Source: Hyalangium ruber | Lineage (GTDB): Bacteria > Myxococcota > Myxococcia > Myxococcales > Myxococcaceae | Direction of reading: 5' to 3' | Length of the DNA: 64,000 bases | Assembly (NCBI RefSeq): GCF_034259325.1 | Contig: NZ_JAXIVS010000020.1 | Location: 62,001-126,000, forward strand | Shown here: in pieces, positions 19,611 to 24,691 of the stretch | Layout: each line of letters opens with the position of its first letter | Position numbering within the stretch: the stretch's first letter is position 1 | Translations under genes and position numbers: made by a program | The notes under the pieces: model-generated | What the model saw: only the letters and a program-made list of their open reading frames with translations | The model's database searches: none | Told to the model about the DNA's origin: nothing

Positions 19611-20945
19611 TTACGCCGCCTTCTTGAGCGTTTGCCGTCCCTCATAGAGCAGCGGCACGCCGTCCTCCGGGGCCATTGTTACGTTGCGGCGCACTGGCCG
19701 GATCGGCCGATCGTGTGCCAGCGAGAAGCGGTGCGCCGACAGCAGCGTGCCCAGCACCACCTTCATCTCGAAGAGCGCGAACGCCGCTCCCAGGCACCGC
19801 CGCGCGCCTCCTCCAAAGGGCAGGTACTCGAATGGCGAGTACTTGCGCTCCAGGAACCGCTCCGGCCGGAAGCGCCCCGGCTCCGGGAAGACCGTCGGAT
19901 TCGAATGGGCCAGGGTGATTGCCGCCATGATCCCCATGCCCGCCGGCAGTTCGTGCCCCTTCACCACGAGCGGCGACAGGAGCTTGCGCGACACCAGCGC
20001 CACCACCGGGAACAACCGCAGCGTCTCGTCACACACCGCCGACAGGTAGGGCAGCCGCGACAGCGCCTCCGGCTCCGGGTCCGTCCCCAGCGCCCCCAGC
20101 TCCTCGTCCAGCCGCTGCTTCGCCTCGGGCGTTCGCAACAACCAGTACAGCGCCCACGCCATGCCGATCGCCGTCGTCTCGTGGCCCGCGATCAACATGG
20201 TGAGCAGCTCGTCCTTCAGCTCCCGATCCGACAGCGGCTGGCCTTCCTCGTCCCGCGCCGACAACAGCAGCGCGAGGATGTCCTGCCCGTTCTGGCTGTC
20301 CGCGCGCCGCCGGGCGATCTGCTCCGTCAGCAGCGCGTCCAACGCCTGGGTGTTCCGCTGGAAGCGAGCCCAAGGCCCCATGCCTCCGAACGCGCGCCGC
20401 ATCGGCACCATCAACATCAGCAGCGGCGTGTAGGACTCCATGTAGGCCGCGATCGCCTCGCCAAACCGCCGCACCCGCTCCGGCTCCTCCACGCCGAACA
20501 CGGCGCGGATGATGATCTCCAGCGAGAGCGTCTGCGTCATCCGCAGCGCCACCAGCGGCTCTCCCGGGCGCAGCCCCTCCGTGGCCTGCAGGACGCTCTT
20601 CCGCATCAGCTCGCCATACGCGCGCATCCGCTCGCCGTGGAACGGTGGCATCAACAGCCGCCGCTCCCGCCGGTGGCGCTCGCCTCCCAACAGCAGCAGC
20701 GAGTTCGCACCCACCACCGGCTCCAGCACCACGCGGGACAACGGCTCGAACACCGCTGGATCCGCGGAGAAGATCTCCCGCAGTCCCTCCGGATCTCCCG
20801 TCACCGCGATGGTGCCCATGGGCAGCTTGGCGATAAACGGATCTCCGTAGCGCTCGGCACACTCGCGGAAGAAGCCCGCAGTGTCCTTCATGAAGTGCAG
20901 CGTTTGCAGCGGCGGGAACCGGGGCCCTCGGAGTTGCGCGGGCAT
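19611..20945 (-). CDS. Cytochrome P450
   Basis: 444-residue soluble P450. The heme-binding loop FGGGARRC places the axial Cys near residue 384. The oxygen-binding I-helix has AGHETTA (about 254-260), and ExxR appears in DETLRLF. A PERF-type block (RFRPERFLE) precedes the heme loop. No membrane anchor is present, as usual for bacterial enzymes. The sequence style (CYP102/110-like, with DTAGFFRECAERYGDPF at the start) suggests a fatty-acid or terpenoid hydroxylase, but substrate is not deducible. It follows the GST gene by 19 nt and precedes sitA by 10 nt. Confidence 0.93.
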   Translation of the reverse strand: MPAQLRGPRFPPLQTLHFMKDTAGFFRECAERYGDPFIAKLPMGTIAVTGDPEGLREIFSADPAVFEPLSRVVLEPVVGANSLLLLGGERHRRERRLLMPPFHGERMRAYGELMRKSVLQATEGLRPGEPLVALRMTQTLSLEIIIRAVFGVEEPERVRRFGEAIAAYMESYTPLLMLMVPMRRAFGGMGPWARFQRNTQALDALLTEQIARRRADSQNGQDILALLLSARDEEGQPLSDRELKDELLTMLIAGHETTAIGMAWALYWLLRTPEAKQRLDEELGALGTDPEPEALSRLPYLSAVCDETLRLFPVVALVSRKLLSPLVVKGHELPAGMGIMAAITLAHSNPTVFPEPGRFRPERFLERKYSPFEYLPFGGGARRCLGAAFALFEMKVVLGTLLSAHRFSLAHDRPIRPVRRNVTMAPEDGVPLLYEGRQTLKKAA

Positions 20946-21741: not shown

Positions 21742-23430
21742 TTACCCCGCGCGACGCCGGACTGAACGGCGGACCGCGTCCAACCACCGGCCATGCACCC
21801 GCGCCGCGCGCGCTCGCGCCAGGATGCGCGCCCCCGGCCCCAGCCGCGCCTCCTCCGCCAGGCCGAGATCCTCCGCCACCTCGGTGGCCGCCATCGCTCC
21901 GGTGAGCGCCGCGCCCTCCATGTACCCCTGGGCGTCCAGGCTCGTGTGCTCGCCGCAGAAGTGCAGGTTGCCCACCCGCTCGATCTCCGCGCCCGCGATC
22001 GTCGTGAACTGCCCCACTTTGTAGGCCGAGTAGCTGCCGAGCGTCAGCGGGTGGCTGGGCCAGTGCATGCGCGCTACACGGCCATTGGCAGCGGCCTTCA
22101 CTCCGGGAAACACCGCCTCGAAGCCCTCGAGGAACGCGGCGGCCTGCTGCTCCGGCGTGCCCTCGCCCAGCGCCAGGCCCTTCTGGCCTCCCGTGTACTG
22201 GGTGAGGATGCCCGCGCTGCCCGGCTGCAGGCGGCTCGTCTCCCACGTCTGCATGTAGCCCGTGTCCGAGTAGGTGCTGCCCTCGGAGAGGTGCGGCGCC
22301 GCACGCCACGGGCGCGAGGAGAAGCCCACCATCAGCTTCGCGTTCGTCCCGTAGCCCAGCTCCGCGATGGCCTTGCGCTTCGCCGCGGGCAATTCCACCC
22401 GAACGTCCACCTGCCGCAGCAGCGTGAAGGGCAGCGCGAGCACCACATGCTCCGCCTTCACCTCCCGGGTGCCCCCCGGGCTGGAGAAGCTCAGCCGGTA
22501 ACGGCCGTCGGACAGCGCATGGAGCGACTCCAGCCGGTGCTCGAGCTGGATCTGCCCCGGCTCCAGGCGCTCGGCGAGCCGCTGGGTGAAGGTGTCATTG
22601 CCCTCCTTCGCGTGGAAGCGCTCGTCGGACTCGCCGAAGAGCTCCAGGCGGGTGGCGTCCGTGGAGATGAAGGTCAGCAGGTTGAGGCAGTTGCACTCAT
22701 CCGCGTCCAGCCCGAACTCGCCCACGTAGGCCAGCTCGATGAGCCGCCGCACGGGGTTCGTCGCGGGGATGCCCTCGCCATCCATCCATGCGCTCAGCGA
22801 GAGCTGATCCAGCGCCTCGGCGCCGTTGGGCGTCCGATAGGTGACGTACTCCTCGGGATCCGCCAACGCCCCCAGCGCCACGTCGATGCGCTCGGCGATG
22901 GGGCCGAAGCCGTTCAGAATCTCCTCCTCACTGAGCCGGTGTCCGTCGAAGTAGGCCACCAGTCGGGCCAGCTCCGGAGCGTCCTGGTTGTAGTCCAGCA
23001 GCTCGATCTCCAGCTCCTGCGCCAGGTCGTGCATCGTCTCGTGGCCGGTGTCGATGAACTCACCGCCCAGCTCGCAGTGCTGGCCCTCGGGGAAGACGCC
23101 GCGCGCGGAGAACATCCGCCCCCCCGTGCGCGTCGACGCCTCGTAGATGCGCGCCGTGACGCCCAACTGCTGGAGCCGGTAGGCGCAGTGCAGGCCCGCC
23201 ATGCCGCCTCCGACGATGGCCACGCTCTCCATCTCGGGATCCTCGCCACATGCGGTGAGCGCCGCCGCTCCCGCCATTCCCCCAGTGAGGTGAAGGAAGG
23301 TGCGCCGATCGAACTGGGCGCGCCCCTGTTGCCTCGCCGCGTACTCCGAGACCGACACTCCCGCGGCGGAAGCCTTTCGTGCCGTGCGAAGCGCGCGCAG
23401 GACAAGGTTCATCAGGTGGGTTCGGGCCAT
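21742..23430 (-). CDS. Flavin monoamine oxidase family protein with Tat/lipoprotein-like leader
   Basis: 562 residues from the ATG at 23430, which has a GAGGAAC ribosome site; the longer reading upstream is rejected. An RR-containing leader (FDRRTFLHLTGGMAG, then LTAC) suggests Tat export with lipidation. The FAD-binding motif GGGMAGLHCAYRLQQLG lies near residue 75 and the C-terminal FAD block FCGEHTSLDAQGYMEGA near 505. Family members oxidise amines, polyamines or amino acids; the substrate pocket cannot be read. Divergent from the msrA-like gene with 185 nt between starts. Confidence 0.88.
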   Translation of the reverse strand: MARTHLMNLVLRALRTARKASAAGVSVSEYAARQQGRAQFDRRTFLHLTGGMAGAAALTACGEDPEMESVAIVGGGMAGLHCAYRLQQLGVTARIYEASTRTGGRMFSARGVFPEGQHCELGGEFIDTGHETMHDLAQELEIELLDYNQDAPELARLVAYFDGHRLSEEEILNGFGPIAERIDVALGALADPEEYVTYRTPNGAEALDQLSLSAWMDGEGIPATNPVRRLIELAYVGEFGLDADECNCLNLLTFISTDATRLELFGESDERFHAKEGNDTFTQRLAERLEPGQIQLEHRLESLHALSDGRYRLSFSSPGGTREVKAEHVVLALPFTLLRQVDVRVELPAAKRKAIAELGYGTNAKLMVGFSSRPWRAAPHLSEGSTYSDTGYMQTWETSRLQPGSAGILTQYTGGQKGLALGEGTPEQQAAAFLEGFEAVFPGVKAAANGRVARMHWPSHPLTLGSYSAYKVGQFTTIAGAEIERVGNLHFCGEHTSLDAQGYMEGAALTGAMAATEVAEDLGLAEEARLGPGARILARARAARVHGRWLDAVRRSVRRRAG

Positions 23431-23615
23431 CCAGTTCCTCGCTGTGGGGGGTGTGATGAATTTACAGGCTGCTCCCCGGCCTTGGGGCACGATATCGACC
23501 CACGGAGCGCACGCTCCGGAACCGTTGCTTGACGAACATGCCCTGGAGGAAGTCTCTCGGGAAGAGGGGTAACCTCTCCCCGGATTCACCCGTACAGGCA
23601 CGTGGAGGAAGCATC

Positions 23616-24278
23616 ATGACGCCAGCCCTGCCCCTGGATGCCGAGGCCCCCACGCTCGTGGAGACCGCCACCTTCTCGTTGGGTTGATTCTGGGGCCCTG
23701 ACGCCCGGTTCGGGTGTCTACCTGGAGTCCTCCGCACACGCGTCGGCTACACCGGCGGCGCACAGCCGAACCCCACCTACGAGCGCCTCGGGGACCACAC
23801 GGAGTCTCTGCAGATCGACTACGACCCGCGCCGCATCTCGTACGAGAAGCTGCTGGAGCTCTTCTGGCGAGAGCATGACCCCTCCGAGAGGCCCTACAGC
23901 CGCCAGTACATGGCCGCCGTGTTCCACGCCAACAAGGAGCAGTGGGCACTGGCGCTGGAGACGGGGCGGCGGCACCTGGCGGGAAAGACCGTGACGCTGC
24001 GCACGCCCGTCCTCCCGCTGTCCACCTTCTACCGGGCCGAGGACTACCACCAGAAGTACTACCTCCGCCGGCATGCGGAGCTGGTGCGTGAGTTCAGCGG
24101 CTACGGGGAGCAGCAGTTCACCGACTCCACCGTGGCGGCCCGCCTCAACGCCTACGTCAGCGGCCACGGCACGCTGGAAGCAATGGAGGCGGAGTTCGAT
24201 CGCTTCGGGTTATCAGCGGCCGGCGGCAAGCGGCTTCGGGAGCTTGCCGCGGCGGCCCTGTCACGTCGGCGGCGCTGA
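23616..24278 (+). CDS. msrA: Peptide methionine sulfoxide reductase A with TGA at the catalytic position (candidate selenoprotein)
   Basis: One 220-residue reading frame interrupted only by TGA at 23685-23687 (codon 24). Translated through, it reads TFSLG-X-FWGPD then GYTGG, DHTES, DYDP and FWREHDP, a clear MsrA. X is exactly the active-site Cys of the GCFWG motif, so TGA probably encodes selenocysteine, as in selenoprotein MsrA of some other bacteria and algae. GTGGAGGAA provides a strong ribosome site before the ATG. There is no other stop or shift to the terminal TGA. Cys34 could be a resolving thiol. The alternative is a pseudogene made by one substitution at that codon. No selA, selB or selC lies in the window. 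Confidence 0.72.
23685..23718 (+). promoter_or_regulatory. SECIS-like hairpin after the in-frame TGA
   Basis: Directly after TGA (23685-23687), bases 23700-23706 (GACGCCC) pair with 23712-23718 (GGGTGTC) in seven pairs, one of them G-U, closing a GGTTC loop at 23707-23711. The loop begins 20 nt after the TGA and starts with GGU, as in the SelB-binding loop of E. coli fdhF. Codons here (CCT, GGG, TGT, CTA, CCT, GGA) are unusually poor in C/G-ending synonyms preferred elsewhere in the window, suggesting RNA-level constraint. Confidence 0.55.
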
Positions 24279-24280
24279 GC

Positions 24281-24691
24281 CTACAGCACGGCCTCGAGGA
24301 CGGTGGTGATCCGCTTGGTGTAGTCGGTCACGCTGCCGTCGCTGCGCTCGTAGGACGGGTCCGCGTCGACATGCAGCGTGTCGCCGTTTACCTTCGCCTC
24401 CAGGGAGCACCAGCTCCGGGTGCTGGTGATCTGCACCTTCTTGATCTTCGCCTTGAGCGCGTCGCGCCCCAGATCATCCTGACAGATCGACTTCAGCGCC
24501 CCTTCCAACGGCTGGAAGAAGTTGTAGTCGAACATGTTGCCGTACTCGGCCGAGTAGCCCTCCTTGGCGAGCTGATCCCAGGCGATGTCCAGCTCCAGCT
24601 CGATTCCGGAGATCTCGTTCAGCTTCTGCTTCCAGCCCGGAAACTTATCCTTCTGATAGGCCGCGACGGCACGCTTCTCTGCAAGACCCAA
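24281..24691 (-). CDS. Hypothetical protein
   Basis: 136-residue soluble protein without signal peptide or recognised motif. It has mixed helix and strand, including ELELDIAWDQLAKEGYS and a single Cys pair region (SICQDD, RSWCSLE). It begins at a TTG preceded at good distance by CAGGAGGGC, so this start is credible. Its stop lies 2 nt from the convergent msrA-like gene. I recall similar uncharacterised proteins in other bacteria but no function. Confidence 0.6.
   Translation of the reverse strand: MGLAEKRAVAAYQKDKFPGWKQKLNEISGIELELDIAWDQLAKEGYSAEYGNMFDYNFFQPLEGALKSICQDDLGRDALKAKIKKVQITSTRSWCSLEAKVNGDTLHVDADPSYERSDGSVTDYTKRITTVLEAVL

Follow-up and report, generated by a model that had tools for sequence, protein, structure and literature searches.

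Does the TGA that interrupts an msrA reading frame of Hyalangium ruber, exactly where the codon for the catalytic cysteine belongs, end translation, or does it encode selenocysteine (Sec)? We analysed this locus within a 64,000-nt stretch of the genome (hereafter the window), in which standard open reading frame (ORF) calling leaves just a 122-aa remnant of the frame, starting at an inner ATG at 23910, much as the initial annotation had foreseen when it expected a truncated MsrA to be reported from that position. The computational evidence comprises the frame and its conservation, the machinery genes, a co-varying hairpin and the predicted fold. It makes us nearly certain that msrA is intact and encodes a peptide-methionine (S)-S-oxide reductase of the Clostridium oremlandii type, a selenoprotein in which UGA codon 24 is read as Sec through a downstream hairpin.

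Reading frame, domains and active site

The genome that carries the gene comprises 43 contigs totalling 10.77 Mb; the main features of the gene in the window are as follows.

23616-24278, + strand: msrA selenoprotein gene, 220 codons plus stop, with codon 24 as the proposed Sec codon
23604-23608, + strand: GGAGG ribosome-binding site, 7 nt 5′ of the ATG (from the sequence)
23685-23687, + strand: UGA codon 24, proposed Sec, at the catalytic Cys place of GCFWG (from translation and alignment)
23664-24077, + strand: catalytic PMSR domain, residues 17-154 (Pfam match)
24114-24215, + strand: C-terminal helical domain of selenoprotein MsrA, residues 167-200 matched (Pfam match and predicted fold)

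Translated with the TGA as a residue, the frame gives 220 amino acids and closes with a terminal TGA; its sole internal TGA is codon 24, set in FSLG-U-FWGPDARFG (motif GxFWGPDA). The GGAGG bears out the strong ribosome site claimed earlier for this start and also precedes the ATG in H. versicolor and in the Myxococcota genomes G007, G103 and G130; in the upstream strings compared, it was not found before the ATG in G008 or G075.

With the TGA read as Cys, the protein scores 126.6 bits against Pfam PMSR (PF01625, cut-off 23.7) and 29.5 bits against MsrA_helical (PF20939, cut-off 23.7), which Pfam's own description calls the helical domain of selenoprotein MsrA. Translation, Pfam and alignment together uphold the initial annotation in its claim of a full-length MsrA frame with one TGA at the catalytic Cys. 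The window protein also matches TIGR00401 (113.5 bits, cut-off 108.1). PF20939 is matched at E 0.001 in 5 of 12 members carrying the TGA; judged by sequence, the helical domain of the other seven would be diverged or is not shown. Residues 13-97 (window 23652-23906, + strand) give a weak hit to the VPGUxxT thioredoxin-like (seleno)protein model NCBIfam NF041383 (36.4 bits, cut-off 275), which hints that this model may contain an MsrA-like stretch.

In the seven best PDB sequence rows, the two best of which were inspected as alignments, residue 24 falls opposite residue 16 of C. oremlandii MsrA (CoMsrA) chains; residue 16 is described as the catalytic Sec/Cys of that enzyme (PMC4479559). The same account gives Glu55 as essential and places W18, Y47, Y90, Y140 and Y141 in or around the active site (PMC4479559). 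In the PDB alignment, E55, W18, Y47, Y90, Y140 and Y141 correspond to identical residues here: E63, W26, Y55, Y98, Y148 and Y149. The predicted fold of the window protein (mean pLDDT 96.8, model built from 40 sequences) matches 4LWJ over nearly the full length (TM 0.83/0.89); the seven PDB rows that match this fold best are chains of C. oremlandii MsrA. Among the seven PDB rows, 7c13_A comes from an entry whose title names glutaredoxin, the chain itself being named MsrA; the other six titles name C. oremlandii MsrA. The window protein is a member of the C. oremlandii selenoprotein-MsrA subfamily.

Recurrence of the TGA and selection on the codons behind it

If codon 24 were a nonsense mutation, the TGA would end translation and the downstream part would be decaying. 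The genome contains two further MsrA matches (on contigs C10 and C5), both without an internal stop, so that a loss here would be tolerable. Against this reading stands the recurrence of the same TGA in full-length frames of other genera. The initial annotation had proposed aligning orthologs of relatives at this codon: among the best 80 of 247 related loci in named genomes, the catalytic codon is TGA in nine and a Cys codon (TGC or TGT) in 71, the TGC locus L140 being counted with the latter. The TGA carriers among these 80 are Hyalangium versicolor (Archangiaceae in its NCBI record), Dethiosulfatarculus sandiegensis and metagenome bins of Desulfobacterota, Myxococcota and Chloroflexota. Frameshifts or decay near the codon, which the initial annotation had named as signs against its proposal, were not seen in the relatives, where the same TGA stands in intact frames.

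The TGA form is present in 3 of 60 relatives' genomes, the window's own included. A profile search of 195 Myxococcota genomes gave 38 with a match at 1e-40, and seven of the genomes have the TGA form: that of the window (G000), G007, G008, G075, G103, G130 and G132. The other 34 match rows listed lack an internal stop and run to about position 150 of 207, which is what would be expected of an ordinary MsrA. G132 gave the same protein as H. versicolor and was taken as the same genome, which leaves 15 distinct TGA genes. Kinship with TGA relatives in the same family, this H. versicolor genome among them, is the ground for calling the window host a fruiting myxobacterium. The internal stop at the place of codon 24 is always TGA among the matches listed, none of which has TAA or TAG inside, a further point against a decaying gene; because this stop recurs in several unrelated assemblies, chance is excluded.

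The same recurrence bears on a sequencing or assembly error at codon 24, to which we assign next to no probability. The codon is also TGA in H. versicolor, G007, G008, G103, G130 and G075, each of them with differences from the window at other places in the gene, and a base-calling error is very unlikely given the same TGA in other assemblies. A quick tree in which the catalytic residue was masked places six TGA-bearing family members together (SH-aLRT 90); on it the Sec label requires four changes against a shuffled mean of 14.1, with 33 of 86 inner branches open and the TGA rows L108 and L011 long-branched.

Selection on the codons behind the TGA was estimated as dN/dS by simple counting in ten pairs from five myxobacterial genes (window, H. 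versicolor, G007, G130 and G103), the more diverged G008 and G075 being left out. Over all codons after the TGA, dN/dS is 0.26-0.57. For codons 25-98, between the TGA and the inner ATG, it is 0.15-0.34 in 10 of 10 pairs; for codons 99-220 alone it reaches up to 0.84 (pair window/G007). Purifying selection on codons 25-98 argues against the TGA as a stop, as these codons would then be untranslated. Together with the shared TGA, it refutes in practice the reading of the gene as a pseudogene, which we regard as extremely improbable.

Two neighbours of msrA in the window have relatives near the gene in other genomes.

21742-23601, − strand: flavin amine oxidase ORF, divergent neighbour (coordinates from its longest start; translation probably begins further in)
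19611-20945, − strand: cytochrome P450 (ORF and Pfam comparison)

Nine ORFs of the window were compared with the surroundings of msrA in related genomes. H. versicolor and G130 have relatives of the flavin amine oxidase and the P450 near msrA; none was found within about 19.5 kb around msrA in G007, G008, G103 and G075, a pattern that fits inheritance in one sub-lineage and moves or losses elsewhere. Directly 3′ of msrA, on the other strand, lies a 136-aa frame (window 24281-24691, − strand) with no Pfam match.

Selenocysteine machinery and the hairpin behind the UGA

All four genes that the initial annotation had proposed to look for in the same genome, selB and the tRNA-Sec gene among them, are present. 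The tRNA-Sec scores 72.4 bits (cut-off 47) and is also called by ARAGORN, with anticodon TCA; selB scores 306.9 bits (cut-off 242.25), selA 566.8 bits (cut-off 267.9) and selD 385.9 bits (cut-off 125). The selD frame itself has one in-frame TGA, and a second frame elsewhere in the genome resembles a Sec peroxiredoxin, for which TxxU is a described form (PMC13188914).

G000:C7:62733-63659, − strand: selD (L155), in-frame TGA near the N-terminus, CAG-stop-AAK
G000:C22:25366-25731, − strand: peroxiredoxin frame (L203), TGA in TPG-TGA-T where the catalytic Cys is expected

The peroxiredoxin frame is likely to be a further selenoprotein of this genome, which thus likely holds at least three selenoprotein genes (msrA, selD and the peroxiredoxin). 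Formate dehydrogenase was considered as the main reason for keeping a Sec system and rejected: of its five matches none is over the cut-off or has an internal stop, and no alpha subunit passes.

tRNA-Sec is over the cut-off in 7 of 7 Myxococcota genomes with the TGA form. In 24 genomes of the named loci, comprising all nine TGA genomes and 15 of the 71 Cys genomes picked by hand, it passes in 8 of 9 and 2 of 15, respectively, at a cut-off that is not clean, since 5 of 14 control genomes also exceed it. Three genomes break the pattern: L076, a metagenome bin with the TGA, has no tRNA-Sec over the cut-off, and two Cys bins have one, clear in L081 (75.3 bits) and near the threshold in L077 (50.6 bits). 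G007 has two tRNA-Sec matches over the cut-off about 22 kb apart (C1:5182915-5183007 and 5204985-5205079; 59.5 and 73.2 bits).

The presence of the complete Sec machinery also speaks against the UGA being read through by another route. A related alternative is that a short product from the inner ATG is functional, since that ATG does open a 122-aa frame. Such a product would begin too late to contain the catalytic residue and would miss half of the catalytic domain, and codons 25-98, which lie 5′ of that start, are conserved. We consider these two alternatives, taken together, highly unlikely, and retain Sec decoding of codon 24.

Sec decoding in bacteria uses an mRNA hairpin (SECIS), and the predicted fold behind the UGA has two parts.

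23700-23718, + strand: SECIS apical hairpin, 8 bp stem, GUU loop at 23708-23710, 20 nt from UGA to loop
23686-23729, + strand: lower stem of the predicted SECIS fold, 23686-23694 with 23721-23729

The published bacterial SECIS model describes a loop of 3-9 nt on a 4-16 bp stem with a G in the first two loop positions, 16-37 nt from the UGA and with a minimum free energy of at most −7.5 kcal/mol (PMC13188914), and the msrA hairpin agrees with it. The energy of the 51-nt SECIS fold, −24.6 kcal/mol (z −2.37), is reached by 6 of 200 shuffles. The lower stem is also predicted in H. versicolor, G007, G130 and partly G103; G008 folds differently. We rejected the hairpin alone as proof: under minimum-energy folding, 271 of the 1252 TGA triplets in the window match the same model, 29 of them with a stem of at least 8 bp, and in GC-rich DNA such a hairpin is by itself weak evidence.

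Co-variation is stronger evidence than the fit of the hairpin. When the 15 TGA sites were folded singly, ten gave the hairpin in register, one fits the model via another hairpin and four fit none. Across the 14 distinct TGA sequences, 88.4% of cells are paired and ten cells show two-sided changes, with exchanges at two stem pairs (G-C/U-A and G-C/A-U). The paired cells, the cells with a two-sided change and the covariation score all exceed 500 of 500 shuffles, which ignore the relatedness of the sequences; the numbers of pairs with a two-sided change (476/500) and of further pair types (433/500) are not above all shuffles. Sliding the stem partners lowers pairing in the TGA sequences to 23-55%, and in the Cys control (69 distinct sequences) the same columns are 38.2% paired, with no excess over shuffles. 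The GUU hairpin persists next to the Cys codon of one TGC locus, L081 (676-720), from a Syntrophobacterales bin whose genome has tRNA-Sec; this locus looks like a recent Sec-to-Cys change, with a possible fossil SECIS.

Proposed mechanism and known relatives

By analogy with characterised relatives, Sec insertion, catalysis and recycling may proceed as follows. SelD and SelA would make the Sec, and the mRNA hairpin just 3′ of the UGA would bind SelB, which would deliver Sec-tRNA-Sec. Sec24 would then attack the sulfoxide of oxidised methionine, with Glu63 assisting, and the resulting selenenic acid would be re-reduced, probably by glutaredoxin, as no resolving Cys is conserved among the TGA proteins (the 1-Cys type). 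Five of 12 TGA proteins have no further Cys, and the genome has five glutaredoxin-domain matches as candidate reductants for MsrA. Cys34 of the window protein was rejected as a conserved resolving residue, being found in only 2 of 15 TGA proteins (window and G008). In the predicted model it comes after helix 26-33 and, by simple geometry along that helix, would lie about 15 Å from residue 24. That this Cys, ten residues after the Sec (U-x9-C), serves as resolving Cys in these two proteins by forming a selenenylsulfide seems improbable to us; if it did, a 1-Sec glutaredoxin-dependent enzyme would have become, in myxobacteria, a two-residue enzyme reducible by thioredoxin.

A seemingly truncated gene would on our reading be a catalytic repair enzyme, a genuine protein that standard gene calls for these genomes miss. 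MsrA joins the likely selenoproteins of fruiting myxobacteria and gives a manageable system in which to ask why a genome with two stop-free MsrA copies also retains the Sec form. The TGA form is confined to just 7 of the 195 Myxococcota genomes, although in the set of 60 relatives' genomes selB is over the cut-off in 44 and tRNA-Sec in 47. The initial annotation knew of no such enzyme in a fruiting myxobacterium, and in the open-licence literature, judged mostly by title and start of abstract, we likewise found no report of one; its novelty is tempered in that bacterial selenoprotein MsrA is already a recognised family, listed as such in PMC13188914 and PMC9312934, in whose main texts the string 'myxococc' is absent.

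Green algae have Sec-MsrA with Sec at the catalytic position, made by eukaryotic decoding. In eukaryotes the SECIS sits in the 3′ UTR (PMC1088965), and an MsrA selenoprotein from sea water was taken as eukaryotic by its authors (PMC1088965). Cys MsrA proteins of the same subfamily (Haloarcula, Halanaerobium, Planococcus and others) align over most of their length with 40-52% identity to the window protein; in contrast to it, they have TGC or TGT at the catalytic codon and no co-varying hairpin, and tRNA-Sec was over the cut-off in 2 of 15 tested genomes. For the deltaproteobacterium Syntrophobacter fumaroxidans a selenoprotein MsrA is listed (PMC1794560, Table 3); MsrA is absent from the 11 selenoproteins that the same table gives for Anaeromyxobacter dehalogenans. 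The closest counterpart is the characterised selenoprotein MsrA of C. oremlandii (PMC4333827, PMC4479559; structures 4LWJ and 4U66), which shares with the window protein the Sec position, GxFWGPDA, the lack of a conserved resolving Cys, the helical domain and the active-site residues, at about 40% identity in the structural alignment. CoMsrA, as described, has no Cys, whereas the window protein has one, the poorly conserved Cys34; C. oremlandii is an anaerobic Clostridium, and the host of the predicted enzyme of the window is a myxobacterium. The window msrA is thus an added example of a known bacterial enzyme kind, in fruiting myxobacteria.
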